Shown piece after piece: positions 2,768 to 24,106 of a stretch of 24,106 bases of DNA (its first letter is position 1; each line of letters opens with the position of its first letter). The notes beneath the pieces are model-generated. The model was not told the DNA's origin, searched no databases, and saw nothing but the letters and a program-made list of their open reading frames with translations. Origin of the DNA: Syncephalis plumigaleata (Eukaryota > Zoopagomycota > Zoopagomycetes > Zoopagales > Piptocephalidaceae); assembly GCA_025201365.1 (NCBI GenBank), contig JAIXMF010000208.1:1-24106 (forward strand). Reading direction: 5' to 3'. Both the position numbers and the translations under genes were made by a program.

Positions 2768-3287
2768 AACAAAATACAGGGTTTTTCAACCGATTAACAC
2801 TACTGGCCTTTAACTTTTGCTGTTTATTAATAAATAATCTTGCACAACAGTTAACATTATTATCGCATTGCTACTATTATTGAGTAGTTGTCATTGCCCT
2901 AGCAGTTGAGGGAGATGTTAATGATCGCTATATCATATATTACAATAGTTCTAACAAACTATGATGAATTGACAGCAACATTTAGTAAAGGACAATATGG
3001 ATGCTTGTTTCATTCAGTGCATTGTTATAATGGCATTCGAGATGATTCAGATAGCAAGCTTCAATCAAGCATAATGAAATGATGACATAGTACATGTGCT
3101 ACCGAGCAACATCCTCTATGCATTGAGAAGCATTCATCAGTTTGTACAGCTTGATGTCTCAATTGCTACTATAGTTGATTTATTCGATTAATCATCCAGT
3201 TCATAGAAAGTATTAGCATGTGTTATGGTTTAATGATGTATAAACACTACACTTATTAACTAATGTAGTATGATTTATTGATGTTAG
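2768..3287. other. Intergenic region with a copy of the F-box gene upstream block
   Basis: No open frame of note. It holds the original upstream sequence of the 605-residue protein gene, displaced by the LINE, and the repeated block at 2986-3099. The rest is AT-rich and unremarkable, and contains the probable 3' end of the F-box gene near 3200-3287. Confidence 0.5.
2986..3099 (-). repeat. Second copy of the F-box gene upstream block
   Basis: It aligns in the same orientation with 4923-5037 at roughly 80% identity by eye. Both copies start TAAAGGACAATAT and share CAGTGCAT, TTATAATGG, CAAGCTTCA and TCAAGCATAAT in the same order and spacing. The 4923 copy is immediately upstream of the F-box start codon. 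This one has no F-box open frame after it; the next minus-strand gene is the 605-residue protein. It is either the promoter relic of a lost F-box paralogue or a shared promoter for the neighbouring gene. Confidence 0.7.
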
Positions 3288-4910
3288 TTATAATTCGCCG
3301 TATTCTTCTATCACTAGCGTATGCCTTTCATTGGAACTATATATTGTACCGACTATTGCATAGTCAGGCACGTTCAAGTCCGTATCTGGCATCTCCAATG
3401 TACGTATTATTTCTTTTGTATTGATGTCTACAAGCCATCGATTTTCTATATCATCATGATCATCTGTAATAAAAGAATAGAGATCTCCAATAATATTCTC
3501 AAAGTAACTTATACCCGGCATTCGTAATACTTGATCGTCATTGTATGATAAGTCTGTCCATACTTTTGCCGGATGGGCACCGAATGTTAAATATTTGCAT
3601 CCAGCTCTTAATAGTGGAATAGGTATATGTTGCCTAGTTATAGTGTAGCAATTACGTGGAGTATGACTTTGACCACTGGATGCTACACTATGCATTATGC
3701 ATGAAATATAATCAGTATCATCACATAATTCAATTATCATATGCGAATCGTATGAATTACGAGGAAATACTGACACATCGGTTATCCTCTCAGGTAGTTG
3801 AAACCAGCCATTTCGCAATTGTACAACAGGATTGTTGCTCGAGAACTGGTATAATGCCCATTCAATACGATCTGTATCATCATCTTTGACTATTTTTACT
3901 GTGTATACTATTGCTCTATTATTGGTTGTTTTGTAGAAACATGCCGTATCCCATGTATCATCAATGCTTCCTGAATACATGACACTGTTATCTATATCGA
4001 ATACCATTATACCGGCTGAGTGTATCGAGTATTAGTACTAGTTATACTGCATCATTGTATAATTACTACGCTTACAAATTGGCAAATCATCGGATGGCTC
4101 TCGTAATATTTTCACTAATAACACCCATTTCCCCTCGATTGCCACCACTCGATATTGTAATGAAACATCGAATGTTGTGAAAACACCACCATGCTTGCGA
4201 GAAAGTATTTTTACTTTATAGTCGGTATCGCTCTCAATCTCCATAGGAAATACGGCTATGTAATAATCACCCGTAACATAAAAATACTCGGTTTCATTAC
4301 CAGTATCCAGTGAGATAATGTTTGGCGATGTGGATAGCGTACTGTTATACACAGTATTGTTGTTTGATCTCAGGTTTGAATGCGGTAGATATTCGACAGT
4401 GTAACTATGACTCGGTGTTCCGTCTGGGCGATCTTGCAGTATGATAACAAAATCATTATATCCGCCTGTGCGATAACGTATTCCATCCTTGTCCTGTTCA
4501 GTATCGATATGCGTGGTATTACATCGTTTATATCGCCAATTATTCTCGGTGCTCACTCGTCGACGATATGTGTTGTACCAGTCCACATTCTCTAGTAGAT
4601 CGGCTCGTTTATCCGATGTACATGGATTGTTGACATCCGTGCGTATACACCATAATACGAAATCCATTTCTTTGTCGTAATACGCTCCCGATAGGAAATC
4701 CCTATGGTATATTTGTTGCCATAATATTGGGTCATTTCGAATACTGCTTCTTAACGAGCGACAACATGCTGATAAACGCAATAATTCGATATGATCAAAT
4801 AGACTACGAAAGACACGCTGATCATGAAATGGAAGAGTATTCAGACAGTCCAGTAATCTACAAGACGAGTTGGAATTACTCGATATCTCAGTAGGAGTAG
4901 AAGTAGACAT
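3288..4910 (-). CDS. F-box protein, two exons, 520 residues
   Basis: Probable substrate-recognition subunit of an SCF (Skp1-cullin-F-box) ubiquitin ligase. An F-box-like segment lies at about residues 17-70: CLNTLPFHDQRVFRSLF, then LLRLSACCRSLRSSI, then DPILWQQIYHRDF, matching the usual LP...L...CR.W.Y pattern. The rest, about 450 residues, is a beta-rich region without a repeat family I can name (no clear WD40 or LRR). Exons are 4910-4076 and 4015-3288. The 60-nt intron (4075-4016) has a GTAAGC donor, a TACTAATAC branch-like site and a CAG acceptor, and joins the two open frames in phase (521 codons including the stop). If the intron were retained, a stop in it would truncate the protein at about 290 residues. 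The start at 4910 is the first ATG before the F-box. The upstream block 4923-5037 is duplicated at 2986-3099. Confidence 0.8.
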
Positions 4911-4922
4911 GATGAAAAAGAA

Positions 4923-5037
4923 TAAAGGACAATATTGGTGCTTGCTTTGTTCAGTGCATCTTTATAATGGAGTGCGAGAGGATTCATATAACAAGCTTCA
5001 GTCAAGCATAATATAATAATGACGCGATATATGTCTT
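4923..5037 (-). promoter_or_regulatory. Upstream block of the F-box gene, duplicated at 2986
   Basis: It begins 12 bp before the F-box ATG (4910) and is conserved with 2986-3099 over about 114 bp. Its position implies 5' leader or core promoter. TTATAATGG may be a TATA-like element. No binding factor can be named. Confidence 0.5.
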
Positions 5038-5105
5038 ACATAATAACGTCATATAAAACACTGATCATTTCTACGAGAGAGATGAGCTCTCCTTTTTTAT
5101 TATTA

Positions 5106-5802
5106 CTACAACGTAACCAATCGATCACTATGCGGGAATGGTTCATCTACTGGTATGGCCACCTTCTTTACGCGTATAGCCGGTGTTCTTGGTAGTTCTA
5201 CTAGTTTACCATTAGCGGTGGATGCATCAGTTGCTGTATCATCGACGACAATCAGATTAGCTTCTGCCAATCGATGTTTCTCTTCATCCAATGCCTAGAA
5301 TACAATAAAGTTATCTATCAATGCTCCAACTTGACTAGTCGAACATTGCTCTACTTACCTCAACTGTAGACGCGTTTGTAATTATATTCAATGCATCACG
5401 GAATTGAGTATTATCGTGTCGAATACGCTCCTTTAACTCATGATGTTGCGTACGAGTAACGCGTACTTTATCCGTATTCTCCTCCTAAGCACATCCATTC
5501 ATATACCATACTACTATTTAGTCATCTTGCTGTTTCTCATCTACTATTATAACACGTACCAATTCCTTTGTCAACTTGTTCTTTTCCTCTTCTGATACGG
5601 CATAGGGTAATGCTGGTGGTTCAATCTGGCCTATGTATACATATTATGTATAAGCTATCTTTCTTTCTATGAATAAAGAATAAACAGTATAGTAACAATT
5701 ACCAGTAGAATAGGGCGAGAATAGCTCGGCCATATAGTCATGATGACGACGATAACGATCAAGCGCAACGTCACGCTCTGTCCACTGATCTTGTTCCTCC
5801 AT
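5106..5802 (-). CDS. Small coiled-coil protein, four exons, 161 residues; possible BAF57/SMARCE1-like
   Basis: Exons: 5802-5703, 5630-5560, 5484-5359 and 5294-5106. Introns of 72, 75 and 64 nt (donors GTAATT, GTACGT, GTAAGT) all keep frame, giving 162 codons including the stop. The protein opens MEEQDQWTERDVALDRYRRH, then has HDYMAELFSP, then a charged heptad-like region at about residues 45-110 (EEEKNKLTKELEEN, HHELKERIRHDNTQFRDAL) and a short basic/proline C-terminus. The order R(Y/F)xRxHxx(M/I)xE(L/I)(F/L)S, coiled coil, then FxxxLxxI resembles the part of metazoan SMARCE1/BAF57 that follows its HMG box. No HMG box is present here. If the resemblance is real, it would be a SWI/SNF-type chromatin-remodelling subunit. 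The gene structure is well supported; the family assignment is weak. Confidence 0.65.
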
Positions 5803-5927
5803 AATAACAATAGTAGTAGTAATAATAAAAGTAAAAGTAAGGGATCAAGTTAAATACAAATAGGTGGGCGTATGCGTGTATACAAATAATAACTGGGACA
5901 ATACACGTTAGTTTTTAATCCCACATT
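5803..5927. other. Intergenic promoter region of the small coiled-coil gene
   Basis: AT-rich sequence upstream of the minus-strand gene starting at 5802, ending where the inverted repeat begins at 5928. The minus-strand 5' leader has ACTATTATTATTATTAC-like and pyrimidine-rich sequence. No other feature is seen. Confidence 0.4.
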
Positions 5928-6234
5928 AGCTCTTTAGATATACGCTCGCTCACCACCCTTTAATCTACCACATACAGTAGTAGAAGAGCAGAAACAGCGC
6001 ATTTGTTTCTATGGTACTCCTTTCTTTCATTCTCTTTTGTCCATCCATCGTACTCAAGAACTCGAAATTAGTTCCGTTTATTCTTACTTTCTTTTTAACA
6101 ATGCCGGCGGATAGAAATGAAAGCAGTAAATATTCTCTCTAATAAACGTATAAATACCTGTTGTTCCTTTCGCTAATACTTGGTATATTAAATGTAGATC
6201 ATGATGATCGAGCTGCTGCAAAAGCTAAGCAAAA
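5928..6234 (+). repeat. Left arm of long inverted repeat (promoter, exon 1, intron, start of exon 2 of gene A)
   Basis: It pairs with the reverse complement of 12235-12540. The outermost 36 bp are identical (begins AGCTCTTTAGATATACGCTC), and the whole arm is roughly 85-90% identical by eye, with most differences in the 5' leader near 6075-6100 and inside the intron. Similarity stops after the codons for AKQ in exon 2. No matching target-site duplication is seen outside the two arms (CCCACATT on the left, GATATGTG on the right). Confidence 0.9.
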
Positions 6235-6901
6235 GAAAGAAGAGCGTAAGATCAAAGCCAGGAAATACAAAGACCGTAACAAAAAATCGATATTAGCGAA
6301 AGAAAGAGAAAACAGATTAATTGATGCAACTGTCAAGTTAATCACTAAAGCGAAACAAGCCGGTGATAGTCCCCGTAAAATTCTAACTAAACTAAAAATA
6401 AGGGTTAGCAACTTTATGAGAAGAGTAAAAGAAATGCGTAACGAAGATGATAGCTTGTTCTTATGGCTTCTCGGTGTTAAAGTCACTGGAGTAGAAGATC
6501 ATGAGCTCACTTCACTAGAACCATTATGGCCTTATACTAAACCCGCGAGCATGAATGTAGCATCAACTTCAACAGCACATCAAGCGGAAGCAGATAACGA
6601 GATCACAAATGCTCAAACGAAAGTAGCTAAAACCTTTGATTGTGACCTGCGAGACAATAATTGTGGCAGATTGATGTCAGAATGCAGAAGGTATATGTAT
6701 ATGTACGCGTATTTTGTGCCGGAGGCGCGGGCTTACGTGTCGTCACGTATATATAATTCCATCATTGCTAAACTTCCCAATGAATCGGAAGCAAAGGATC
6801 CTGATTCTACAGATATTGGTGCCGATACGGACATTGAAATCAAGGAAGAGCCAGATGTCTTGTTACAAATAGCGCAGCACCTAATTGAGAGTACCAAATG
6901 A
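6101..6901 (+). CDS. Gene A of the inverted pair: basic nuclear-like protein, 242 residues
   Basis: Not recognised. Exon 1 is 6101-6125 (MPADRNES plus one base), the intron is 6126-6197 (72 nt, GTAAAT donor, TGTAG acceptor) and exon 2 is 6198-6901. The frame is preserved (243 codons with the stop). The start was chosen because ATGCCGGCGGATAGAAATGA is conserved in gene B with its own splice donor, whereas the unspliced ATG-less frame before 6198 is intron. The N-terminus is HDDRAAAKAKQ followed by a very basic helix-prone region (about residues 21-93: KKEERKIKARKYKDRNKK and KLKIRVSNFMRRVKEM). The middle is Ser/Thr/Ala-rich. The C-terminus is acidic with IKEEPD, a SUMO-consensus-like motif. This suggests a nuclear, possibly DNA-binding protein, but no named domain is visible. 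The leader and 3' block are shared with gene B while the body is not. Confidence 0.65.
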
Positions 6902-7135
6902 TGACGTCGATGTCGTAGAATCAGTATTTTAGCAATATGATAATGGTGATATTAGAGCAGCACACGACATGCAGTATTTGGTAACAAATTGGGTATAACA
7001 TCCCATTGCATATTAGCATTAATAAAGCTTTATTATCAGTAAAATATTTATTAATAGAAGTGAGAAAGTGTGCATGTTATAAATTGTATATATAAAGATA
7101 TCAAATATACCTAAATATACCTAAAGGAATCTGTT
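6902..7135 (+). other. 3' region of gene A, with the block shared with gene B
   Basis: AT-rich 3' sequence. AATAAAGC at about 7021-7028 is a likely polyadenylation signal. The block 7041-7090 matches the reverse complement of 11848-11895 downstream of gene B (about 90% identity, one 2-nt indel), so the 3' end of the duplicated unit is also recognisable. It is followed by a short tandem of CTAAATATAC near 7107-7125. Confidence 0.6.
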
Positions 7136-7900
7136 GGTAAACTTAAGTCTTTCCATTACCTTTACTAGCCTCAGTTTATCACATTTCTAAGTACCCATTT
7201 CATTGTTATTTCCCTGTCATTTCTCCTACCATTAAACAGCAAGTGCCTTCTTTGTGTCAACTACATTCCACTTGTCAGTAAACAACCCGCGTCCACTTCC
7301 TCTTAACTATATGCTAGATATTCCTTTTCCTTTATTACTTGTTTACTTTCTCAGTAATACGCGTCTTATTCGTGTCATTCACATTCTACTTCATCTTTCA
7401 CTTTAGCATACACATTCCAATAGCAGCTATTCTGTCATACTATCTCTATGCCGTTTATCTGTCTCTTTGTTTTCTTCTTCCTCTATCCTATCTACATGCT
7501 CACTTGTCGTTATTATTACTATATCAATAAGCTTGTTTGTTGCTCGTTCTAGTCCTTTGTTTTCTATCACTGTCCTGCTTATTTATCAATGTTTAAGCGT
7601 TTACTACTCTCGTTGTAATATGTACCTTTTACTTTTACCACTCTTTTCCGTCATCTGTTTGTATGCCACTATTACGTCATGCTTTTATTTGTATTTTATT
7701 TGTTTAGTGCCATCTACACACTCTATTCACTTACGAGCATACACTGCTTCTTCGAATAAACTAGCATACGTGTTCATGCACCCTTCCTTGCTCATTCCTT
7801 GCTCATTCGTGACAAGTCAGTCATTCTACTAGTTACTGCTTGTTTATTATATTGTTTATCGTGTATTCTATTTGTTCACTCGTTGCTACCTCTATGCAAG
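7136..7900 (+). repeat. Pyrimidine-rich degenerate low-complexity tract
   Basis: The plus strand is strongly T/C-rich. Small direct repeats are present, for example the 11-mer CCTTGCTCATT twice in tandem at 7786-7807. Open frames here (7339-7530, 7467-7832) are Leu/Ser/Tyr-rich products of this composition and are not called as genes. The motif CTCATTCCTTG recurs on the opposite strand near 11168-11178. Confidence 0.6.
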
Positions 7901-9229
7901 TAACCGTAAGCATTATCATCATAATTTATCTACCATACTAATTAATAGCTACTTGTAAGTATATGACATGGCAATATCCCTATCTGCAGTGGCCTATTCT
8001 TTGTCTATTTCCATTTTGTCCATGTTGTTTGCAGTAGTCTACTGCACTCTGCTTCTACTCGTGCACTAATACCAATATAGTATACACTACATGTCCGATA
8101 CTCTTGATTAACAAGATTGTACGTAGACTAGCACGTTTCAATGAAAGCAATACAAGCAATACAAGTATGCATCAATATACAGGTCAATAATACATTGATA
8201 CAAGTTCATATGGTCTATTAATCCATCATTCATTGCGTAAGCATCAAATACTAACTGATTCATTCGATCATCTAGCTATTTATTGAATAAATTTGTGTAA
8301 TCCATTTTGGTTTAGAAATAATGTACAAGTACTAATTAGCAGATCTATAGATAGTCTCAGCTATTCTACGTTGTTATATCCATAATGCGTGTAAGGTATG
8401 GCCATACATTACAGCAGTAGAATATGTTCAATATTTGTTTATATTATTAATAGCTAGTAATCACTCGTATACTACACGATATGATTAGCATTAATCGTAT
8501 TTCCATACACTCATTATTCGCCATTCATAATTATCAATTAGCATCAGTCATTCTGTATAGTCATTGTATGTCTAGTTGTATACACGTAGTCAAGTCCATT
8601 GCTGACTATACTCCTAATGACGAGCACATCATATTGCAGCAGTACATCTAAAAGCTAGAATATTATTGTATCGAATAGTGAATACGTTTATTGATGATGA
8701 AATCATTAGATCATACAGCGATAGCAGTAGTTGTATGGTCATGCTGTGCGAGTGCCATCACATTCTCATTGTCTATATGATTGCTAATCCATTCAATGAC
8801 CTATTAGTATTTTGTTAGAATGAATCAGCTATTGCTCGATACTTACCGTATACTAATAGTGTATCGATTATAACTAGAAAGTGTCTAAGCTAATAGACGT
8901 ACATACCATTGATTAATAAAGACAATTACACGATCCAACTATGATGGCAATGACCATTAAACCATTGCTTCTACTTGTAAGCCATGTTGTCATTCAGTTA
9001 TAGTTCATGATTCAAGTATTAGGTAGTAGCAGTGTATTCATGTCAATGCACGCACGATCACGTCAGATGATCAGTATCTATTGTGTTGTTCGATGATTTG
9101 CTATACAATTCATTACAATGACTACAGGTAAATATACATCCATCGATATTAATGCATAATCAGTGAGTGGATGAGTGATATATTCTAGTTGATTGTATAC
9201 TGCTGATAACTGAATATTAATGATAGGAA
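7901..9229. other. AT-rich non-coding spacer with short palindromes
   Basis: No credible open frame. It contains several short inverted repeats: GCAGTAG-T-CTACTGC at about 8031-8045, ATTTATT-G-AATAAAT near 8279-8293 and a 22-nt near-perfect palindrome at 8391-8412 (10 of 11 pairs). Many such stems are expected by chance in AT-rich DNA, so no function is claimed. Confidence 0.5.
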
Positions 9230-11275
9230 TAGCAGTAGTGATAGTAGTAGTAGCTAGTTGTATTGGTTGAAAGCAAAGTATGTTCAATTGAGTGTAGAGA
9301 ATACAGCGATATGTATGAAGTTGATATGGTGTTTATTGGCTGAATGAGAATAGAAGCAGAGGGACAAGTAGTATGGATAGTAGTAGGAGTGAATGGAGCG
9401 AATGAGCACATATGCTTACAGAATACAAACAAACAAATAAACAAATAAACAGAGTTGATACAACAAGAAAGAGGAGCAGTAGCAGCAGCAGCTAGTGAAT
9501 AGAGTGAATACCGCGTATACACCACTTACCGTGTAGATTACAAATAAACAATAGAGATACGAGTGTATGAATAGAGTAGTAGACGAGTAAGCGAACAAGC
9601 TATCAGTACAAGCAACAAGCAGTGCTGTCAATGAACTATTAAGAAGCAGTGTTTGCTGTGAGCGGTATTAACCAAACAATATGCTTTAGCAAGTGGCATA
9701 CTACCGGGAGAAGCTATAGCAGTACATTCCTGGTCGACTAGCCTGCATGTATGCATATAAAGCTACTCCTAGTAGTCAATACAGACTGATGACGATACGA
9801 ATACAGGCCGGTAAGCAAACAGTGTGAGTATCCCATAGGAGCATACAGTGATAGAATACGGGTAAATGGTACGGATCTGACGAGAGTGCAGTATCGTAGT
9901 TTGATAAACAAGGGAGAGGGTCAACAAGTAGCAGGAGTATCGTGTACAGGTACAAGCACCAGACTAGAATACAAATAAACAGTGTAGACTTATCGTGTAC
10001 GAGTGCTATAGAGTGGAGGACAAACACAGTGGAATAAAGTGCGTATAACGTGTAATTGCAGTGACAGTCCGTAGAAAAGCATCACAAGCTGCAAAGAAGT
10101 AAAGGCAACAGAGAGAACGAATATAACGCGTAAACGTATGACGTGGCATTGACCTATTGCTAGAGCAGCAGCAGTAACAACAATAGGAATAGGAATATAC
10201 GAATAGTGAAGGTGACCGAGAACAACAAACGAGTAATGAGAAGAAGAGTACAGGTATGGGAGTGTATTCAGGTAAGAGACGTGTAGTGTTAGCGTAGCGA
10301 GGAGCAGGTGGAGAGTGGCTAACGGGGAAAGACGGGTAGAGATGGAAGAGTAAGCAAAAGAATCAAGGGAAGCAGGAATGACGATTGGCAGATCAAATAG
10401 TGAGAGGAATAAAGAAGTAACGCGTAAACAAAGCGAGTGCGTTCACAAGTGCACTAGTGAGCATATCCACCTCCTACGAGTGTCACGGTGATAGATACGC
10501 GGTTGACGAGTGAACCAGTCAGCTGGTCAGCTAATAAACAAACAAGCAGGTTAGCGAGTGTGTGAGTGTGCATATCCACCTCCTACGAGTGTCACGGTGA
10601 TAACTATGCGGTTGACGAGTGAACAAATGAACGAATGAGCAATAAACGAGTAACGAGTAACGCGTAAACAATAAACAAGTGTGTTGACAAGTGTGTGAGT
10701 GTGTATACAGCCAGTTAAGAGTGTTACGGCAATAGATACGTGAATAACGAGTGAACGAGTGAACGAACGAGCAGATGAGCGAGTGTAGTGAATAAGAGGA
10801 ATGAGTAAAACGCGCAACAAACGAGATCGAGCGGAAGGAGTGAGTGTAGTGAGTAGAAGGTGCAAGAGGAACGAGATCAAGCGAGAGGAACGAGTATAGT
10901 AAATAGAACGCCCGAGTAATGAGTAAAGCACGCAACGAACGAGATCAGACGAGAGAATGAGCAGATCGAAAGGAAGAAAGAGAGAGGAACGAGTTAATCG
11001 AGCAAGACGAACGAATAGAACGCACGAGTTATGAGTAGATCGAGCGAGGAATGAGTAGATCGAGCGAGGAATGAGTAGAATGTAAGCGCAAGGAGTAGAA
11101 TGAGTAGAATGAGTAGAGTGCGAGACGAATGTAAGAGGAAAGTGAGAGCGTGATGAGTAGAACGCGCAAGGAATGAGTAGAGCGAGCGAGTGAAAGAGAG
11201 TAATGAATATAACGTGTGAGGAATGAGCGGGATTAGTGAATAAAAGAGTACAATAACAATGAATGAACATAAAAA
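9230..11275 (-). repeat. Purine-rich degenerate satellite-like tract
   Basis: The plus strand is A/G-rich, the mirror of 7136-7900. It is built from diverged short words such as CGAGTGAACGA, GAATGAGTAGA, AACGCGTAAACA and AAACAAATAAAC. A longer unit begins at 10461, recurs almost exactly at 10570 and again, more diverged, near 10703. A perfect 20-bp tandem pair, ATGAGTAGATCGAGCGAGGA, occupies 11031-11070. Minus-strand open frames across 10531-11323 translate to Ser/Leu/His-rich repetitive peptides and are treated as composition artefacts. Confidence 0.7.
10461..10756 (+). repeat. Minisatellite of three diverged units (109- and about 133-bp spacing)
   Basis: The unit core GCATATCCACCTCCTACGAG continues with TGTCACGGTGATA and GCGGTTGACGAGTGAAC. 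Copies 1 (10461-10514) and 2 (10570-10624) differ at a few positions. Copy 3 (about 10703-10756) keeps GAGTGT(T)ACGG, ATAGATACG and AACGAGTGAAC. Spacers between the copies also share GTGTGTGAGTGTG and CGCGTAAACAA. Confidence 0.75.
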
Positions 11276-11585
11276 ATCATAATAAATCGAGGAGTGGAGG
11301 TACAGCAAAGTAATTATATTCATTCGACGCGTATTTCGATGAGGAACACGATAGTGTTAATGAATAAATTGTAGAAGGCATATTGGAGGAGGTAGAGGCA
11401 TGAAGGGCCGAGAGTAAGGAGAGCAAGTTAATAATTTATAATAAATTGAATAACAAAGCTACAGCGATGTATGTACATTCATTCGACGCGTATTGTAATG
11501 AGGAACATGATGGTATACATTAGAAACATATAGGAGGAGCATTAATGGAGTTAGTGTCATGAGAGCAAGGTGTATGGCCATCATC
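11276..11585 (+). repeat. Two-copy tandem repeat, about 160-bp unit
   Basis: The units start near 11276 and 11436. They share AATAAAT, TACAGC, ATTCATTCGACGCGTATT (11318 and 11477) and ATGAGGAACA, followed by GGAGGAG-type sequence and CATGA. The offset of the best-conserved part is 159 bp. The gene-like context is nil. Confidence 0.65.
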
Positions 11586-11942
11586 ATTCCTGTGTATCAC
11601 TATTGTCATTAGTCATTGTTACTAATAAATGTTAATAAGAATACATAGATTTATTAATGGTTTCATTCAAATTGTCCTATTGTCCTTAGTGTTATGCATA
11701 GTCATCATTGGTCAATAAAGGCTAACAACACCTACTAATGGGAGCATTAACAAAATGGAAGGGAAAGATAGGAGGAAATCATAAGGAACAACATTAATAA
11801 AAGTTAATAAATTTATTAGTATTCAATTACAAAATTCTACATTTATTATACAATTTATAGCACACACTTTTTCACTTCTATTAATAAATATTTTTATTTA
11901 CAACAAAATTTTAATATCTTTTCTTATATGTGAAAAATATAG
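11586..11942 (-). other. 3' region of gene B with shared 3' block
   Basis: AT-rich, with repeated TTAATAAATTTATTA-type words. The segment 11848-11895, read on the minus strand, matches 7041-7090 downstream of gene A, including ATTTATTAATAGAAGTGA and ATAAATTGTAT. It is the counterpart 3' end of the duplicated unit. Confidence 0.6.
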
Positions 11943-12369
11943 TTAACGCCCCCAATGGATGCAGGTTATCCTCCCTGCTGTAGCGTTGTATGGTGTTTTT
12001 TCGACAATAAGAGACATCGCTTTTCTAGAATGTGCTGATCCATTTATCCATGAAGAGATGTCCTGAACAAGGCTTAATTCACTCATTAGGCTTTTTGGGG
12101 ATACCTTCTCAGTGAAAGTAGTGATTAAAATGGGGTGCCGCTTGTACGTTCTATATGCAATATAGCAAGAGTTGACGGCACAAGCCATATAATCCCAAGT
12201 AAGTGCGTGCTGATATTTGTCTGGAAGCCTATAATTTTGCTTTGCTTCTGCAGCAGCTCGATCATCATGATCTACATTTAATATACCAAGCATTGGTAAA
12301 AGGAACAACAGGCATTTACGCTTTTACGAAAGAGAAACACTTACCGTTTTCATTTCTATCCGCCGGCAT
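11943..12369 (-). CDS. Gene B of the inverted pair: 117-residue protein with gene A leader
   Basis: Not recognised. Exon 1 is 12369-12345 (MPADRNEN plus one base), the intron is 12344-12272 (73 nt, GTAAGT donor, TGTAG acceptor) and exon 2 is 12271-11943. The frame is kept (118 codons with the stop). The first 20 residues are nearly those of gene A (MPADRNEN-D-HDDRAAAEAKQ). After that the sequence is unrelated: NYRLPDKYQHALTWDYMACA and onward, with no basic region and no acidic SUMO-like tail, ending CIHWGR. It contains several Cys but no clear zinc motif or signal peptide. Either the body was replaced or each copy kept a different part of a longer ancestor. A decaying pseudogene is possible, although start, splice sites and frame are intact. 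Confidence 0.55.
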
Positions 12370-12540
12370 CGTTACAAAGAGTATGAACAAATAGAATTGA
12401 TTTCGAGTTCTTGAGTACGATGGATGGGCAGAAGAGAATGAAAGAAAGGAGTACCATAGAAACAAATGCGCTTTTTATGTTCTTCTACTACTGTATGTGA
12501 TAAATTAAAGGGTGGTGAGCGAGCGTATATCTAAAGAGCT
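12235..12540 (-). repeat. Right arm of long inverted repeat (promoter, exon 1, intron, start of exon 2 of gene B)
   Basis: Reverse complement of 5928-6234 at roughly 85-90% identity by eye; the outer end is sharp at 12540. It contains the gene B promoter, leader, exon 1, intron and 13 shared codons of exon 2. Promoter positions are better conserved than intron positions. Confidence 0.9.
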
Positions 12541-12798
12541 GATATGTGATATAGACGATCGATTGATTATAATCGATGACGATGCATTGATTAGTTATTT
12601 CATGTTTGATTGAATAAAGTCTTTATTGAAGAATGGGTATAAATTATTTATCTGTTATTCTATCAGAGTAAAACTTGCTCTTTTTTTCTTTTTTCGTTAC
12701 TTGTCAACACTCTTTCTTGACTTTTACTCATTTGAGATTACGGGCATCTAATTAACGAGAGAAGAAATAAGATAAATACTCCTTTTATTTATTTAACT
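12541..12798 (+). promoter_or_regulatory. Intergenic upstream region of RPA49
   Basis: The 258-bp region between the inverted repeat and the RPA49 start. It has a short inverted repeat, ATCGATT(6 nt)AATCGAT, near 12559-12578, a T-rich run near 12681-12705 and an AT-rich leader just before the ATG. No specific promoter element can be assigned with confidence. Confidence 0.35.
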
Positions 12799-14473
12799 AT
12801 GGGCAAGCGTAAACAACCAGACAGTGATAGTATTACATGTCGAGTAGTTGAAGAAAAGAATGGACCTGTACTTGGTAAGGATTAGTTACTACATCTTATA
12901 TATGTCTATATACTTATCTGCCATGATTACTATTACTATTATTCATAGTGACAACACCTACGGTGGCTCCATCGAGTGATGCTGAATTTCATCGATACAA
13001 TAACACGACAGCACGCCGTGCTCATCAAAGTATGATTATGTGCGAGACAGATCGCGTATGGTTCGTAGGCAAGAATTTCGGTGAAACACAACAAACCTCA
13101 CTATTCTGTCGGTAAGTCTACTCAATGAATCTATAGTTAACGTGTATAACATTATCTCATTATTGCTATTTACTATTTACTATTTAGTTATATGATTGGT
13201 GTACGTGATAAACGTACTAATGTACTTACACTGCAACCTGCCACTGTATTCCCATTGGAGAAATCCATTAAATCATTAGCAAATGCTAAATCGATAGCTA
13301 GTTCTGATCAAGACTCGGTAAGTATACTGATCTACTTGTTCTACACTAGATGAATGTATGCTCATCGCTATTTTGATTATCAATGTTAGTATATGGCTGC
13401 CCGTAATCATTTACAAGAGACATTCGGTAATAAGAAACAAAAGGCAGCGGTACGTGCTCGTGAGCGTAATCAAGTCGATGTCTCCCAATTGGAGCATGTG
13501 GCCGGTGTTATCCGCGAGACAATTACGGAACGCTCCACCGATATACCTGATCGTGGTAAGTATATAGTTATGTTGTTATATTGTTATAACTCTCCCCTGA
13601 TGCATATGTTCATTGTCGTCGTTATTAGAGGATATTATGGAATTACAGAATGAATCTAGACCGGTACCACCATTCGATTTGAACGCTCAACGACCCGAGG
13701 ACATTTATCCACTTAAAGATGTGGTTAGTAACGCGGAACTCAACGCTGTACCACTCTCTAAAATACTTAACGGTGCCAAAACTGAACAAGATTACATTAA
13801 ATGGTTGCCATTCACGTAAGTCATTCATTCACGCGTATCATCTCCTCTCCCCTCTATCATTACTAATGAATACCCGTAATTAGTGCTTCTGCTTATATTA
13901 ATGAACGTCTCCCGTTGGCTGTACAAGCGAAGAATCAACAGCAAATTCGACTACTCTACTATTTGGCGTGTATGTTCCAATTCATGCGTGCCATTGGTCC
14001 CTCTGCCATCACTCTTGATACAGCCAAGGACAAGTGTGCATCGGTGCCTCCATCGATTGTTGCTTCGCTATTAACGAAGTTTGCCGAGAATACGCAACGA
14101 GAGAATAAGAAAACAGGACAAGCATTGTAAGTACATCACTCTATACAAACATATATAATATAGTGCCTAACATATATATATTAGTTATCAAAAGACGGAT
14201 TATGCCAAACATCGTCTCATTTGTTATGCACTCGTTATTTGTTTACATTTGGATCAGTTCACCGTGTTGGATCTCGTATTAGCACATGATTTCTCCATGC
14301 CACGTACTAAAATGGACAACTACTTGAGAGCAATTGGCTGTCAAATACGCCCATTAACACCGGCTGAACGAGAGCGTACAGGATTACCCGCCGCTGAAGC
14401 ATCTAATGCACGTAAAGCAATGTTATGTGTACCACTCAAATTCGACGATAAAATATTCCGTCGATCACGCTAA
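12799..14473 (+). CDS. RPA49: DNA-directed RNA polymerase I subunit A49 (RPA49/POLR1E family), seven exons
   Basis: Specific subunit of RNA polymerase I, which makes the large rRNA precursor in the nucleolus. In yeast it pairs with A34.5 in a TFIIF-like module and its C-terminal tandem winged helix binds DNA. Exons: 12799-12874, 12949-13111, 13188-13317, 13390-13555, 13629-13815, 13884-14126 and 14185-14473. All introns (58-76 nt) have GTAAG donors and TAG acceptors, and all phases agree, giving 417 residues, close to the 415 of yeast. The N-terminal part (to about residue 105) includes DRVWFVGKNF and YMIGVRDKRTNVLTLQPA, the dimerisation-domain pattern. The middle linker has PPFDLNAQRPEDIYPL. 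The C-terminus has LYYLACMFQFMRA and LDLVLAHDFSMPRTKMDNYL with RAIGCQIRPL, typical of the winged helices. It ends convergent to the GATA/PHD gene. Confidence 0.92.
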
Positions 14474-14901
14474 TTGATCACACACACATACATATGACAA
14501 TAATGGCAATAACATAAAGCTATTCGTAATCTACTCTACCATTTACAATCTCAATTACAAGAACAAATAAACAAATAAGTAACAAACATCATCAATGTAA
14601 TATGGATCAAAGTTTTCGATAATAGTTTATTATAGTTTATAGTAAAAAAAAGAGAAGATCTTGCAAAAATGAGAGTAGTCAAGGCTCAAGAGAGTAGAGT
14701 AGATGATGTGTGTATGTGTATGTGTAGAAGAAGGCCATGACATTGAGTGAGTGAGTGAGTGATTGTAGTTTGTAGTGATAGTCCATAATATTTAATTAAA
14801 AGACTGCTATATACGTCCATTGGTAGTGGAACTAATGTAGCATAACGACAATGATGATGATAACTGAAAAGTGAAGAGAAGAGAAAGAGATAGTGTCATG
14901 T
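14474..14901. other. Convergent 3' intergenic region between RPA49 and the GATA/PHD gene
   Basis: No gene seen. It contains AAACAAATAAACAAATAAG near 14562-14580, a possible plus-strand 3'-end signal. It also has a TGTGTATG-type microsatellite near 14708-14725 and a GAGT tandem at about 14744-14762. The minus-strand 3' end of the GATA/PHD transcript must fall here, perhaps near the TTTAATTAAA at 14791-14800. Confidence 0.5.
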
Positions 14902-17547
14902 TTAAGACCAGCCAATAATGGCACCATCATGTTCTTCTATATCGTCGTCTTCTTCATCTTCATCTTCTTCATCATCAACTAGAACACGAGCAGCAGCTAC
15001 ATCTTCTTCATCGTCATCATCATCATCATCATCATCTACATGATTGTTTTCACGATGATGAACACGTCCCTTAACAGCAACAACATCATTATCATCATTA
15101 CCGTGATCAAGTAATGTAGATCGTATGGCAGTACGAGTTGAGCGTGGTGATTGACGATGATCACTAATAGTGCCATTGTTGACACTATTCAATGAACTAG
15201 TCGAGAATCGGAATTGCTCCTCTAGTAGTGAACGACAAGAGAGTGCACCATCATTACCCGCTGATAATGGTGTAGAACGGTTAAGATTGCCGTTGCCGTT
15301 GTTATTCGTGTTATTAGTGTCATCTTCCTCCATATCAACTTCGCCGTAGAATAGACGAGGACGAGCACGAGCTGTTCGTCTTGATGACATGGCTGCTGCA
15401 GTGGTGGCTGAATAGGAGCGTGCACGCATACCAACTGGAAGTGGTGGTGTCGCTAACTGATGACGAATACGAGGTGATCCACCATCTTCGGAAAGACTGG
15501 CTGAACTGCCACGACGCATCGATACCATACAATCAGCGGCGGTGGCATCATTGATGTCGTCATCTTTAGGGGAACGCATGAGTGGCAAGCGTTTACGTGG
15601 TAATTCCACGATAATACGACGTTTACGCGCATTCTCCTCGCAGTTGGGCGTGCAATACCATGATCCACTCGAGGGTTTAATCTCCTCGTCGGATATACCA
15701 CCGGTGTAACAGCGTTGATGGTATGATTTGGGACAACCCTCGCAGGATACTAGAATGTCGTTGCACCATGAGCCATCCGAGTGGCACACTGTACAGAATA
15801 GCTGGAGTACAGGTCGTTCGCGATCATGAATCGACTCCCGTTGGTAGGCAGTCAGATTTAGACGAGGTAGTTTGCAAGCAAAGCCGTATCCTTTATAGTC
15901 GCAGCCATGCTTATTGCAAAGAGTGCGCTTGCCCCATGGACCAGGACGCCAGTTAACACCCTCTGTGGTACCGCAGTAACGACACCAATCAACACTGGCC
16001 TCGGTTAGTTGTTCGAACACGGTGGGACGTTGTGTTTTACGTGGTGAGGCAGGTTCACGATCATCACGCGTAACCGGTGAAGGCGACATTTCGGATGCTT
16101 CCGTCTTAATAACAATAGGAGCAGGTTTGTTCAACTTTTTACGATGATGAGTTGTTGATGATGATGATGATGATGTAGATGCAGACGATGTCGATGTCGA
16201 TGATGTTGTTGATACTATCGAATGACCATTACTATCCGTTGAAATGACCGAGTTAGCACGACGCTTACGAGGAGTAGACTTGGTAGGATTACGTTCACCG
16301 GATGATGCAGATGATGACGCTTTACGTTTACGTGAGCCATTAGTTGTAACATCCATATCAACAACAGCTGTCTCTGAACTACTAGAAGTTGTAGCGGTGG
16401 TTATAGCTGTTGCTGTTGCTGCTGTTGTCGTTTCAGTATCGAATGACATTGATGCACGCGTCATTTCCGGTGGTGTAGGAAGCACACCTGAACATAAATG
16501 ACGGGAAAGAACTTGTAAGGCGGTCTTTCCATTCTGATTGGCATTGCCATTCATCATCTCTCCATTGGCGGTATCGGGGACAATGGCTAAGAGTGGAGCA
16601 AGAGGAATAAATGTCGGTTTGTTGAATGACACGTCGTTATTCAGTTTATCAGATGCTGATGGTTTTAAAAGACGTTCCTCCAACTCGGCATCACTAGGCG
16701 GTGAGTTAGGAACAGGGAACTCGACAGATTCACGCGCTTCATAGGCGAACAATGGTGCCTCGGCCTCGGTCACGTTGTTTAGTTGGAAATCGGTTGGCGA
16801 CAATGGTGGCGACAGAGTAGGCGAGCCAGGACGTAAATGACCGATAACACCATCGATATCAGCGGTTAGATCGTCACCAGCGTAGAAGAACACATCGCCG
16901 TTGCGTAGATTGCTCTTACGCAGTTGAAGATGTGCTTGCAAGTAAGCAGGCAACGCTGGAAAGTTGTACACCGTGGCAGCATTCATATCAGCAGGCGAGA
17001 TGGATGCCGGTGGCAATGCAACGGTCGATGCCATTTGTGGTGGCGATGGATATTGTTGCTGAACTTGCTGCGATACAATAGCGGGTGCGGCAGCTGTTAC
17101 GGCTATCGCTGCTGGTGGTGATGGTTGCACTTGTGCCTGTACTTGTGCTTGTGCCTGTGCCTGTGCCTGTACTTGTGCCTGATGTAGCTGCATATGAAGC
17201 TGTTGCTGCTGTTGTAGTAGCTGTTGTTGGTAAAATAGTTGAGCTGCAGCTTGGTTATTCACGGGAGTGCACAGGCTAGCGTTAACGTGATCCGTCGCTA
17301 GCATCGGCATCATCGGCATCATATGAACACCTGGGCGTACAATCGGCGATGCGAACGCTTGTGGTGCAATGATCTGTTGAGGTGGAGGAGTTAAATGCTG
17401 TTGGGATGCTTGTTGTTGTTGTTGTTGTAAAAGCAATAGATGCTGTTGTTGCTGCTGTTGTTGTTGTTGGAGTTGTTGTTGCTGCGCGTGCATCATAACA
17501 AGTGGAAGAGTATGATTTGACGAGGCCAAAGCACTTTGAGTTTCCAT
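14902..17547 (-). CDS. Polyglutamine GATA-like zinc finger plus PHD-finger nuclear regulator, 881 residues
   Basis: Probable chromatin-linked transcriptional regulator, single exon. The N-terminus has polyglutamine tracts (about residues 22-50, 110-120) and a Gln-Ala repeat near 127-145. A Ser/Thr-rich linker follows, with basic nuclear-signal-like stretches (SRKRKASS, TPRKRRANS). The GATA-like finger is at 522-549: CRYC, 18 residues including TTEGVNWRPGPWGKRT, then CNKHGC. The usual fourth cysteine is His547, with Cys549 two residues later, so the metal ligands differ from classic CX2C-X17/18-CX2C. The PHD finger is at 585-636 (C585, C588, C602, C605, H610, C613, C632, C636) and could read histone H3 tails. 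The C-terminus has long Asp/Glu runs. The start at 17547 is the first ATG of the frame and is followed by coding-like sequence. No neighbours appear co-transcribed. Confidence 0.85.
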   Translation of the reverse strand: METQSALASSNHTLPLVMMHAQQQQLQQQQQQQQQHLLLLQQQQQQASQQHLTPPPQQIIAPQAFASPIVRPGVHMMPMMPMLATDHVNASLCTPVNNQAAAQLFYQQQLLQQQQQLHMQLHQAQVQAQAQAQAQVQAQVQPSPPAAIAVTAAAPAIVSQQVQQQYPSPPQMASTVALPPASISPADMNAATVYNFPALPAYLQAHLQLRKSNLRNGDVFFYAGDDLTADIDGVIGHLRPGSPTLSPPLSPTDFQLNNVTEAEAPLFAYEARESVEFPVPNSPPSDAELEERLLKPSASDKLNNDVSFNKPTFIPLAPLLAIVPDTANGEMMNGNANQNGKTALQVLSRHLCSGVLPTPPEMTRASMSFDTETTTAATATAITTATTSSSSETAVVDMDVTTNGSRKRKASSSASSGERNPTKSTPRKRRANSVISTDSNGHSIVSTTSSTSTSSASTSSSSSSTTHHRKKLNKPAPIVIKTEASEMSPSPVTRDDREPASPRKTQRPTVFEQLTEASVDWCRYCGTTEGVNWRPGPWGKRTLCNKHGCDYKGYGFACKLPRLNLTAYQRESIHDRERPVLQLFCTVCHSDGSWCNDILVSCEGCPKSYHQRCYTGGISDEEIKPSSGSWYCTPNCEENARKRRIIVELPRKRLPLMRSPKDDDINDATAADCMVSMRRGSSASLSEDGGSPRIRHQLATPPLPVGMRARSYSATTAAAMSSRRTARARPRLFYGEVDMEEDDTNNTNNNGNGNLNRSTPLSAGNDGALSCRSLLEEQFRFSTSSLNSVNNGTISDHRQSPRSTRTAIRSTLLDHGNDDNDVVAVKGRVHHRENNHVDDDDDDDDDEEDVAAARVLVDDEEDEDEEDDDIEEHDGAIIGWS

Positions 17548-18030
17548 GGCGGTGATTGTAGAATAATAGTGTAAGGATTATGCTGCTTAAACACGTACAC
17601 ACAAACGCGCGCACACACACGATTCAAGCGTAAAAGACGGGTTTGAAATGGAACAATAGGCACAAAGCCGTCCGAAATAAGACAAAGAACTGGAAGTGAT
17701 GCGGTGCAAAGGACGAGGGACAAAGATAATTGGTTGCAATCTATATTTAGAACAAAGGAAGAAAGGTCCACGTTCTGGATGGCAAAAAGGCCAGAGCCAT
17801 GCAGAAGTACACACAAATCAAATGGCATTAGATACGTGTTCACATACACAAACACGCACACATACGCACACATCATACACATAAAAGACAACACACAGAC
17901 ATTATTGGTACTAATATCATTATTATGATCAACGATAATAAACGAGTTAATGTCCGTGTCCGTGTCTGTGTGTCTGTGTGTACATCATGTAGGCGTGTGT
18001 TTCTGCTTATTTGGTTAATTTGCGCTTACC
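17548..18030 (-). promoter_or_regulatory. 5' leader region of the GATA/PHD gene with a candidate leader intron donor
   Basis: Read on the minus strand, TTCAG|GTAAGCGC at 18030/18029 is a strong splice donor. Several YAG acceptors follow before the ATG at 17547, for example TTAAGCAG near 17583 and ATTAG near 17907. A 5'-untranslated intron is therefore plausible but not shown. The plus strand has a GT-rich microsatellite (GTGTCCGTGTCTGTGTGTCT type) at about 17950-17982, and CA/TG repeats at about 17840-17880. Confidence 0.35.
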
Positions 18031-19200
18031 TGAATAGTGTGCTGCTAAAGGCAATAGGGATGGGCGTATTGTGAGCGATTGTCGTTCAAGGATGTGTTTC
18101 AATCACAATTGATGAATGGTGACGGGATCTGTTGTCGTTGTCGTTGTTGTCGCGGTTGCGGTTATTTGATACGGTGTTAGATATCTCAGCAAGCCGTAAC
18201 AGATTGGATAACGAGATTGGCTATGTGCGAAAGTCAAAGCCTATGAAAGAGAAAAGAGGTATATGTAGAGAGAGAGCGAGAGAGAAAGAAGAAAATATTA
18301 AATTAAGTAAACCTGATATAGTATGTGTATAATGTATATAAACGCCACTAATAGCTAGTATAAAAGTGCCAGAACATACGTCAAATATATATATATATAG
18401 ATATCCACAAATTGACAAAACGCCAAGCGCAATAAACGAGAACGAAAGCGAGAACGAAAACGAAAACTTTAAAGCGTGGTGTGTATAGTAAGGCTATATG
18501 CGCACGCGCAATAACTTGATCACTAGTAGCGACACAATTTAGCGGATACGAAACGAAGAATGGAGAGGAGAGGAGGAGAAGAAGAAGTAGGGAATAATAG
18601 TGTATAGATAATAATACTAAAGGTGCAATATAGAAGCAAGTATAATAAAAAGGAAATAATAGTGTAATAGTGTAGAGGAGTAGTAGTAATAGTAGTGGTG
18701 GTGGTTTTTGACACAATAGAAAATTAAGAATAAAGAATGAAAGCCGGAATCGTCTAGTGTATCGTGTTGTAACAACAGTAGCAGTAGCAGAGCAGTAATT
18801 GACCTATCTATACGCATACACACAGAGGAAGAGAGGAGAGAGAGAGAGAGCAAATCCAGAGTGCAACCAAGAAAACAGGTAAAATGGATAAAACTTGGGA
18901 GTACAAATGAGGCACCCCAAAAAGTGCTTATATGCGTATGACCGGTCAGTCCGCGTGGTGATGTGTGCCTCTCTCTCTCTCATACACAGCGTATGTATGT
19001 GTCTTGTTCAAAGCGTAGAGATAACAACATGCGCCTCGACGCATGCCGGTGCATGTGTACCAATAGATACGACAGCAGATTGGCAATAATAAGTAATAAG
19101 AATGAACTTGGTCCAAATGAATATAAGAAAGTAAAAGTAATTGAGTGAAAGAGAGAGAGAGAGAGACATCATTTGTCCATTTGTTTGATGCGCAAGACAA
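18031..19200. other. Non-coding purine-rich and microsatellite DNA
   Basis: No credible gene. Simple sequence is abundant: GAGAGAGAGC-type runs at 18268-18290 and 18834-18850, an AT dinucleotide run near 18385-18400, a GAAAGCGAGAACGAAAAC-type tandem at 18440-18468, AGTAGTAGTAATAGTAGTGG near 18680-18705 and a GA run at 19149-19166. Open frames here follow composition. Confidence 0.5.
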
Positions 19201-19222
19201 GGCCAGCTACGACATTCATATC

Positions 19223-19249
19223 CATTTACCATTTCAAGGATGGTAAATG
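19223..19249. repeat. Perfect 10-bp inverted repeat, 7-nt loop
   Basis: CATTTACCAT, loop TTCAAGG, ATGGTAAATG. A second stem, TACTATT-AAC-AATAGTA, follows at 19274-19290. A 10-bp perfect stem with a short loop is rarely expected by chance in a region this size. Confidence 0.7.
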
Positions 19250-19498
19250 AAACAAACATACCAGAACAATTGCTACTATTAACAATAGTACCTAATACAA
19301 TATGAACAAGAAACGCGTATACGCATTATAGTACAATGATGATGCTAATCATTTACCTAGAACACAAGCATACATACTATTGCTAGTAGTAAAGAGATGA
19401 TGACAAATGAAGAATGAAAAAAGCGTAAAAAACAATTACAATAGAAAACACGCGTATTACAAGTGGTCATTGTCAACAAAACAATGCACTATAATATC

Positions 19499-19547
19499 TC
19501 ATCGTGTATTATAACGATATTCGGATATATCGTATCTCATACGATGA
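19499..19547. repeat. Nested hairpin
   Basis: Outer arms TCATCGT (19499-19505) and ACGATGA (19541-19547) enclose an inner stem ACGATAT (19514-19520) and ATATCGT (19527-19533) with loop TCGGAT. A third simple stem, GTAGAT-GGTTA-ATCTAC, is at 19574-19590. Confidence 0.55.
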
Positions 19548-19692
19548 AAAGTATAGTCACATCCATTAGTTATGTAGATGGTTAATCTACTACTACATCA
19601 TGATCGCTGTAGTTGCTAAAGCTATAAAAACCAGAAACAGCATACAATTATGACGTATGATGCCTGTGTGTACAAACAAACACAACGAGGCA

Positions 19693-20007
19693 GGATTGCG
19701 GCACATGTGGCCACAATCCCTTATACAACAGTATAATTCTACCCATTACACAGACAATGGGAATTAGTGTCACCCGACCAATAAAGATGATAGGTGCACC
19801 ACGACCATTCTCGTTATTGACTGCTTCTTCTCGGGTTAACGAGATACCTTGACAGTCATGGCAGTAGTAGTAGTAGTAGTAGTAGCTATAACAATAATAA
19901 ACCACATATATTCAAGCAATCATCCATTTGTAGTTATTCGATAATGTCGATCACAACGACTACCAATTCAGTAATGGTGTAGCACGTTTACCTATCGAAT
20001 TATCGAA
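19693..20007. other. Hairpin-dense segment, candidate structured RNA or DNA element
   Basis: Stems: GGATTG/CAATCC (19693-19719, extended by 3 bp after one mismatch), CCCATT/AATGGG (19742-19761), TCTCGTTA/TAACGAGA (19809-19844) and TTCGATAAT/ATTATCGAA (19937-19945 with 19999-20007). The last encloses two small 4-bp stems, like a three-way junction. The strand and even the existence of a transcript are unknown. A TAG trinucleotide microsatellite at about 19863-19886 interrupts the segment. Confidence 0.3.
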
Positions 20008-23000: not shown

Positions 23001-23187
23001 GGAAGAGGAATAACACTGCTGTTTTTGTGCGTGTATGGATATTATCCACGTCAAGTAGAAGAATTGGAATAAAACTGACCGTGTAACAACGATGAAACTG
23101 GTTGATTGGTACGCACAAACAAACACGCAGAGATAATAAAATGAGGAATAAAAATGAAGAGAGAGAGGCAGAGAGAGGCAGATGTAA
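20008..23187. other. Long non-coding stretch with simple repeats and scattered hairpins
   Basis: No confident gene. Noted items are GGTGGTGGTGATGGTGGTG near 20310-20330, an AT run at 20581-20596, a GGAGGAGGAGG run at 21790-21801, and purine-rich GAGAGAGA runs near 21320 and 21500-21530. Stems TTTCATTA/TAATGAAA (21997-22022), CACTTAT/ATAAGTG (22122-22140) and CACGACA/TGTCGTG (22444-22467) are also present. Good minus-strand splice-donor strings occur at about 20291 (GGTAAGTAA) and 22963 (CAGGTAAGC). They could belong to distal leader exons of the GATA/PHD gene or to a non-coding transcript. Confidence 0.45.
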
Positions 23188-23203
23188 CTAGTTAGCTAAC
23201 TAG
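23188..23203. repeat. Perfect 16-bp palindrome
   Basis: CTAGTTAGCTAACTAG has no loop and ends exactly at 23188 and 23203. It lies between GA-rich repeats and a CAGT-type degenerate microsatellite at about 23259-23312. It could be a dimeric protein-binding site; nothing else supports a role. Confidence 0.6.
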
Positions 23204-23318
23204 ATAGAGATGTAGATAGACGGGAGAATGTCACGTTGTCCTACACGACCACACAGCCAGTCAGTCAATCAAGTCAATCGAATCAGTCAGTCAGTTAGTC
23301 GAGTCAGTCGAGGATTAG

Positions 23319-23441
23319 AAGGGAGTCAAGTGGGATAAGCGGGGAAAGGAGTGTATGCGAATGAGGAAGAGAGATGAGGAGAAGGCTAAGTTAGATCGTC
23401 GTTTGTCGTTCGCTACACGTGGTAGCATACTACCCACAAAG
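23319..23441 (+). other. Candidate coding exon, uncertain
   Basis: An open frame runs from 23319 to a GTAAAT donor at 23442. It contains ATGs at 23355 and 23361 and reads MRKRDEEKAKLDRRLSF followed by ATRGSILPTK. The composition is protein-like and includes an RRLSF kinase-site-like motif. It could be a first exon of a plus-strand gene continuing beyond the window, but no acceptor in matching phase gives a convincing continuation. Purine-rich background could also create it by chance. Confidence 0.2.
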
Positions 23442-23859
23442 GTAAATACACCGCATTAATGGTGTTATCATGCGCCAAGAACTAATCAGCATACCATATA
23501 TATAAACAATACCGCGCTCTCTCTTTCTCTCTCAACTAATCTATAGACATATAATCGTACGCATTGATGTTTACTTACGTGGTAATAAGCAATGTATCAC
23601 AAATGGATATGTGATCACGAGCAAGTATTGATTTAGGAGAAAGAAAGAGGAAAAAGAAGAAGCAAACTATATAATAATACGCGACAGATCAATCAATCTG
23701 ATGGTTAAGATAATGGTGGATAGTACGATAGCAAGGTTAATAATAAACAGGTTAGAGTATAGGGCGTATAACAATGATAATTAATGATGATAGTAGTAGT
23801 AGTAGTAGTAAGAAGTAAGCAAATAAAAAGTAAGTAAGGGTTGTTTAATGAGTTAATAG
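23442..23859. other. Non-coding gap between two exon candidates
   Basis: Contains CT-rich sequence ending CTAATCTATAG at about 23535-23546 (acceptor-like on plus), an AGAAAGAGGAAAAAGAAGAAG purine run near 23640-23662 and a TAG trinucleotide run at about 23791-23810. No gene is called. Confidence 0.4.
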
Positions 23860-24067
23860 GCAATCCTCTCAATGTGATAGTGTATATTTAAGAAATGTCT
23901 ATGAATTGGCGATGCCATGTCATGGGCTCATTATTAGCCAATGGCATATTGTAGAAAAAAGACAAATTCAACCAGCGGATTATGTCTCCGATGCTCGCTT
24001 AGTGGTTCATGTATCCAAGGATAGACACTCAATCAATGCTAATTTCTCATTCTCATACCAAATGTAG
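23860..24067 (+). other. Candidate terminal coding exon, uncertain
   Basis: An open frame of 72 codons (23852-24067), preceded by a possible TTAATAG acceptor ending at 23859 and closed by TAG at 24065-24067. Its translation is not low-complexity: CDSVYLRNVYELAMPCHGLI, then ISQWHIVEKRQIQPADYVSD, then ARLVVHVSKDRHS. No family is recognised. The phase does not fit the candidate exon at 23319-23441, so the two cannot be joined directly. A remnant of a mobile-element protein is also possible. Confidence 0.25.
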
Positions 24068-24106
24068 CGCCGAATAATGCGGTTATCGTCATATTACAAG
24101 TCAGCT

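Follow-up and report, generated by a model that had tools for sequence, protein, structure and literature searches.

Inverted gene ends at a single locus of Syncephalis plumigaleata, probably the scar of an old duplication

Introduction

Inverted gene duplications that give rise to chimeric genes are a known general kind of rearrangement, and inverted repeats reportedly flank the flip/flop mating-type loci of Ogataea. Two maize systems of related layout are described in PMC3440606: MuDR, an element with two convergent genes and terminal inverted repeats (TIRs) of ~215 bp that contain promoters, and Mu killer, an inverted partial duplication for which hairpin and antisense models are given. Here we analyze a 24,106-nucleotide (nt) stretch of DNA from the fungus Syncephalis plumigaleata (assembly GCA_025201365.1, contig JAIXMF010000208.1; the window), in which two predicted genes face each other between inverted arms at positions 5928-12540. 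A first-pass annotation, made from the sequence alone, had offered three readings of this structure: a non-autonomous mobile element with gene-bearing terminal repeats, an inverted segmental duplication, or a locus that produces double-stranded RNA by convergent read-through. We compared the window, which is a complete contig (C122), with the 32.6-Mb genome (383 contigs), and found that the second reading fits best. Gene content and the shortness of the introns are in keeping with a fungus, perhaps an early-diverging one. It is rather probable that the ends of a gene were long ago duplicated in inverted orientation, giving rise to two chimeric genes that share a leader and have repeats between them. 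A literature search, judged by titles and abstract openings, found no published description of the locus.

Results and Discussion

Two gene outlines in mirror image

The left arm lies at 5928-6234 (forward strand) and the right arm at 12235-12540 (reverse strand), exactly the coordinates given in the first-pass annotation. The arms are 306-307 nt long and match each other in inverted orientation at 88-89% (BLASTN against the whole genome, 89%, expect value E = 9.9e-109; comparison within the window, E = 3e-111). Their outermost 37 bases are identical, one more than had been claimed, and beyond the arm ends the likeness is lost within ~10 bases. The left arm comprises 173 nt before the start codon, exon 1, intron 1 and the first 37 nt of exon 2; as the first-pass annotation had proposed, each arm is predicted to contain a start codon (6101 and 12369), a 25-nt exon 1 and a GT-AG intron of 72 or 73 nt. 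By its position, the 5' flank within each arm is a putative promoter.

A second inverted match, which had escaped the first pass, joins the 3' ends of the two genes: the segment 7041-7096 (forward strand) at the left gene's 3' end is 91% identical over 56 nt to 11842-11894 (reverse strand) at the right gene's 3' end (E = 5e-14). Because the next best inverted match inside the window reaches only E = 0.012, the matches of arms and 3' ends are both far beyond chance. Both pairs occur in inverted order, so that two whole gene outlines mirror each other, and the duplicated unit thus looks like a gene, beyond a mere terminal repeat.

The same structure is present, in the same order and orientation, in a second version of the region (2/2 versions). 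The window is collinear with C373:881922-910021, part of a 969-kb contig (1-10651 at 96.7%, 10565-11642 at 90.8%, and 11632-24106 at 97.3%), and its left arm is 99% identical to C373:887847-888153. We interpret the two contigs as alternative haplotypes; a recent segmental duplication would give the same picture. The BLASTN copy count of the arm that had been suggested in the first-pass annotation gave four matches in the genome, two in the window and two collinear on C373. All of them (4/4) thus belong to one locus in two versions, indicating that the structure was assembled twice, without dispersal. An assembly artefact might be suspected, because the window, a contig of 24 kb, is almost the same as a section of a longer contig; yet the 969-kb contig contains the structure as well, its core being of another length, and the left and right arms differ by 10-12%, so that we find an artefact scarcely credible. 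The first-pass annotation had expected the mobile-element idea to fail if the arm occurred nowhere else and the inverted structure proved to be misassembled. The arm does occur at no other locus, but the two assemblies with unequal core lengths make misassembly unlikely.

The divergence of the arms places the duplication in time. Between versions, the same arm is 98-99% identical; the left arm, by contrast, differs from the right one at 10-12% of positions plus gaps. Of the 38 gap-free variable columns, 30 separate left from right arms in both versions, 8 vary in a single sequence only, and none groups the arms by contig, indicating that the duplication predates the C122/C373 split and giving no sign of recent homogenization by conversion. 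Divergence is highest in the intron (18%), with 9-11% upstream and 3-12% in the exon parts, figures that rest on few sites. One site, with inverted copies that have diverged independently, is what an inverted segmental duplication presents.

Comparison with MuDR-like elements

Sharp-ended inverted arms with convergent genes starting inside them also recall MuDR and other Mutator-like elements (MULEs) of maize. In a worn, solitary DNA element of this kind the arms would be TIRs with promoters and gene starts, and the two convergent genes would have been captured or encoded by the element; the long terminal inverted segments, the 37 identical outer bases and the gene layout agree with such an origin (306 bp here, ~215 bp for MuDR, PMC3440606). 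Unlike such an element, however, the locus has no arm match elsewhere in the 32.6 Mb. A target-site duplication, which for Mutator-like elements is ~9 bp, is also missing, in accord with the first-pass annotation: exact direct matches between the flanks reach 5 bp at most, and the longest does not adjoin the arm ends. Nor is there a transposase domain among the Pfam matches of the left or the right protein, again as previously noted, a result that covers these two proteins and the arm search but not MULE genes elsewhere in the genome, which were not searched for. In addition, the inner 3' ends are common to the two genes, which TIRs need not have, and the left protein's relatives sit outside any inverted arms: inverted repeats are absent at two paralog loci, where 30 kb and 3 kb were inspected. 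A MuDR-like origin is therefore unlikely. The non-autonomous element proposed in the first pass finds no support in arm matches that all fall on the locus and its C373 counterpart; an old solitary element is an unlikely but conceivable source of the arms. The structure is real and lies at one site, and it is probably a rather ordinary remnant of gene duplication, not a mobile element.

The left gene and its C2H2-type relatives

The predicted left gene (6101-6901, forward strand) consists of exon 1 (6101-6125), an intron (6126-6197), exon 2 (6198-6898) and a stop codon (6899-6901), and would encode 242 amino acids (aa). Its protein is related to a C2H2-type family found at two other loci but lacks the finger. 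Residues 20-229 match the 281-aa protein of C318:1120451-1119609 at 24-27% (26-27% for the relatives on C318 and C128), and the score of the left body against the C318 paralog (160, with a shuffle mean of 34) was reached by 0/1000 shuffles. The C318 protein has an N-terminal C2H2-type finger, recognized by eye and matched in Pfam only below the cut-off, and it is the position of this finger that the arm leader occupies in the left gene. A third, weaker family member on C112 (821518-822177, 220 aa) has a finger-like N-terminus; its genome-search E is only 0.29, and in pairwise comparison with the other two members it scores 84 and 70, values reached by 0/1000 shuffles each, a test that ignores the prior search. 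In the genome search with the left protein, matches were confined to the locus and its relatives. A PDB sequence search with the C318 protein gave only weak finger matches (best E = 0.041), and a scan of viral contigs with the same protein yielded no match. The AlphaFold model of the left protein alone has a mean predicted local distance difference test score (pLDDT) of 49.9, too poor for fold searching.

Within the family, the relative shared by C318 and C128 (L014/L015:1426-2268) is unevenly variable between versions: its finger-bearing first 95 codons differ with non-synonymous and synonymous proportions (pN and pS) of 0.108 and 0.081, and its remaining 186 codons with 0.005 and 0.018. Just upstream of it lies a 980-bp repeat with at least 38 other copies, which is more diverged than its surroundings. 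The contig C223 (L046; regions noted, 283534-283926 and 284437-285498) carries a 393-bp copy (92%) of the C318 gene's 3' end, and near this copy is a 354-codon open frame with weak OrfB_IS605 (E = 0.009) and Cas12f1-like TNB (E = 0.14) matches, both below cut-off, perhaps a Fanzor gene. With a finger half that is absent from the left gene and variable between the homologous copies on C318/C128, this small C2H2-type family is a candidate for a role in recognition or repeat control.

The right gene

The predicted right gene (11943-12369, reverse strand) has exons at 12369-12345, 12271-12105 and 12062-11946, a stop codon at 11945-11943, a first intron of GT-AG type at 12344-12272, and a probable second intron of 42 nt at 12104-12063, which the first-pass annotation had not recognized. 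Its protein would be 103 aa long with the 42-nt intron spliced and 117 aa unspliced. The frame from the ATG at 12369 is open to 11946 in the window but is interrupted by a TGA and a TAA in the C373 version. Both C373 stops, together with both C373 gaps (one minus, one plus), lie in 12104-12063 (GT..CTAAT..CAG), and splicing of this segment yields 103 aa in both versions. Because the stops and the compensating single-base gaps all fall inside the predicted intron, it is unlikely that the right gene is broken in C373.

Behind the leader, the right body is unlike the left one. Searched as protein (E up to 10), it has no genome match besides its C373 counterpart; searched as DNA, it has only chance-level genome matches past the repeat that ends at 11849; and the right protein, spliced or unspliced, matches nothing above the Pfam cut-off. 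The idea that it is a diverged left body is unsupported, the score being reached by 949/1000 shuffles, and the score against the C318 protein was reached by 301/1000. The AlphaFold model of the right protein alone, in its unspliced form, has a mean pLDDT of 55.8, also too poor for fold searching.

Repeats between the convergent genes

The two genes face each other across a repetitive core, as the first-pass annotation had described; beyond that description, much of the core is dispersed repeat. A pyrimidine-rich stretch at 7217-7979 (forward strand) recurs at 90.6% identity in C373:876118-876872, which lies to the left of the segment that is collinear with the window. A purine-rich repeat at 8508-11605 (forward strand) has at least 149 matches, 38 of 725 first-look candidates having been scored; its long copies (90-95%) start at 8508/8516 or later and end at 10513-10895, and in 2/8 copies examined (L031, L033) the likeness continues more weakly (66%) to 11605. 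A short repeat adjoining the right gene's 3' end (11645-11849, forward strand) is found in at least 38 further places (72-94%, E <= 2e-23), a figure that excludes the window and its C373 counterpart and comes from at least 87 matches with 40/93 candidates scored. At the equivalent of ~11640, C373 carries an extra 4.2 kb (C373:893404-897597, L007) that is absent from the window, with matches to a reverse transcriptase (E = 1.7e-22) and a Dam-like domain and weaker RNase-H-like and integrase-SAM-like matches, indicating a DIRS-like retroelement.

We also considered whether the whole unit 5928-12540 is a dispersed element, and rejected this, the arm and both proteins being absent from the dispersed core copies. 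Eight core copies with 1.5-kb flanks (L027-L034) have no arm or gene match, these flanks being mostly too short to reach the arm position; one copy surveyed over 12.7 kb, which does reach arm distance, has no such match either. The core part ~10424-10760 recurs elsewhere as tandem units of ~109 nt, in arrays on C271, where a satellite-like array of these units extends for several kb on either side of the core-repeat copies.

A locus of this shape could also be a source of small RNAs, if convergent read-through or a transcript spanning the arms yielded double-stranded RNA, as proposed for Mu killer. Arms that are inverted and 88% alike, with convergent genes, would suit such a function, and PMC3440606, in which Mu killer is likewise an inverted partial gene duplication that includes a 5' segment, offers hairpin and antisense models for the maize case. 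Unlike Mu killer, the arms here are ~6 kb apart, with much dispersed repeat between them, and they match nowhere else in the genome, so that small RNAs from the arms would act on the locus itself, although those made from core repeats might be directed elsewhere. In addition, the arms keep diverging. We regard a small-RNA locus as very unlikely.

Divergence between versions and the cassette alternative

Divergence between C122 and C373 is 3.2-5.6% in nine core bins (7000-12500), compared with a flank mean of 1.4% (37 bins); the nine bins leave out 10501-11631, the most diverged part by alignment (90.8% over 10565-11642). The left gene and its flank (5001-7000) differ by only 0.2-0.8%. A second contig pair of this kind, C128/C318, has a mean difference of 0.9% (41 bins), with 2 bins at 4% or above.

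Such raised divergence would suit a paired cassette resembling the mating-type loci of yeasts, in which two alternative bodies are held in opposite orientation and the arms serve recombination, by inversion or by copying. Unlike middles in inverted order between common 5' and 3' flanks would fit this idea, as would the variable finger half of the C318 relative next to its conserved half (pN 0.108 and 0.005). Against it, order and orientation are the same in the two versions seen, none of the 38 variable arm columns is conversion-like, 2/37 flank bins likewise reach 4% or more, and the near-identity of the left gene and its flank is the opposite of what a locus of alternative alleles would display. 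The Ogataea flip/flop loci reportedly also hold different genes with inverted flanking repeats. Unlike the mating-type loci of that genus (PMC5720833), however, this locus yields no mating-type transcription factor among the Pfam matches of its left and right proteins, that is, no HMG, alpha-box or homeodomain match. A paired cassette therefore seems hardly likely. Still less credence goes to a recognition-type version of it in an early-diverging fungus, in which fast-changing alternative bodies in opposite orientation, one of them from a C2H2-type family with a finger half hypervariable between homologous copies, would share promoter/leader and 3' modules.

A probable old inverted duplication with unlike middles

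The inverted duplication that we favor would have copied, at one site, the 5' flank, start codon, exon 1, intron 1 and the start of exon 2, together with the gene's 3' end. The middle would have been replaced or captured, so as to set unrelated coding bodies in frame behind a near-identical 20-residue leader. The left body would derive from the C2H2-type family, the leader sitting where its relatives have their finger, and the right body would be short and either weakly constrained or fast-evolving. Dispersed repeats would have settled between the convergent 3' ends, presumably after the duplication, and the C373 version would additionally have gained its DIRS-like retroelement. The product would most likely be two ordinary, independent genes, each with one of the two duplicated 5' flanks to drive it, and each spliced and translated as predicted. 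A duplication with a replaced or captured middle would explain why the site is single, why the genes have common 3' ends, why the arms drift independently and why a target-site duplication is missing, and thus appears a better candidate mechanism than transposition.

Several observations weigh against this account. Simple duplication leaves unexplained why the ends are 83-91% alike and the middles unrelated, which calls for an additional replacement or capture, and sharp outer ends with convergent genes starting in the arms are equally expected of a MuDR-like element. The left copy on C373 has two single-base gaps that shift its frame, through decay or assembly error. In the right frame, 3 synonymous and 17 non-synonymous changes between versions (pS 0.046, pN 0.070) indicate no visible constraint, so that it is possibly not a working gene. 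There are also weak hints that the right body is kin to the left one's family: its score against the C112 protein is borderline (50/1000 shuffles), and among 12 tests of the frames in 11601-12235 against the left and C318 proteins, one score was reached by 8/200 shuffles, which is roughly expected from 12 tests.

As an inverted gene duplication with chimeric genes, the locus is of a kind already known, sharing with it the inverted gene ends at one site, their independent divergence and a 5' leader that the copies have in common and that is joined to other coding sequence. Less usual is the combination of two common ends with two unlike bodies, the middles having no visible common origin. If the account is right, the locus is a clear case of an inverted duplication making one 5' leader start two different proteins, with repeats placed between the convergent chimeric genes.

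Neighboring genes and other observations

Each gene of the pair is divergent from a neighbor, with ends set by eye: the left gene from an SWI/SNF Ssr4-like gene at 5106-5802 (reverse strand; PF20497, E = 1.5e-8, approximate hand splice), and the right gene from an RNA polymerase I A49-like gene at 12799-14473 (forward strand; PF06870, E = 2.6e-69, approximate hand splice without the last exon). Further left, an F-box-like gene region at 3000-5000 (F-box-like, E = 2.5e-5) has raised divergence between versions (3.2-5.2%) and contains a repeated 133-bp segment (2986-3118 and 4923-5055, 77%). On the right, upstream of a PHD/GATA-like gene at 14905-17547, a long purine-rich stretch (17600-24000), in which no long open frame is convincing, has a strand bias like that of the core. 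Finally, 2202-2772 holds the tail fragment of a reverse transcriptase of the long interspersed nuclear element (LINE) type (zf-RVT, E = 1.4e-4, below cut-off), bordered by near-identical GGAGAGAGGAGAGAGA stretches that resemble a target-site duplication; a 94% copy of this fragment is present on C318 and absent from C128, suggesting that the family may have been mobile recently.

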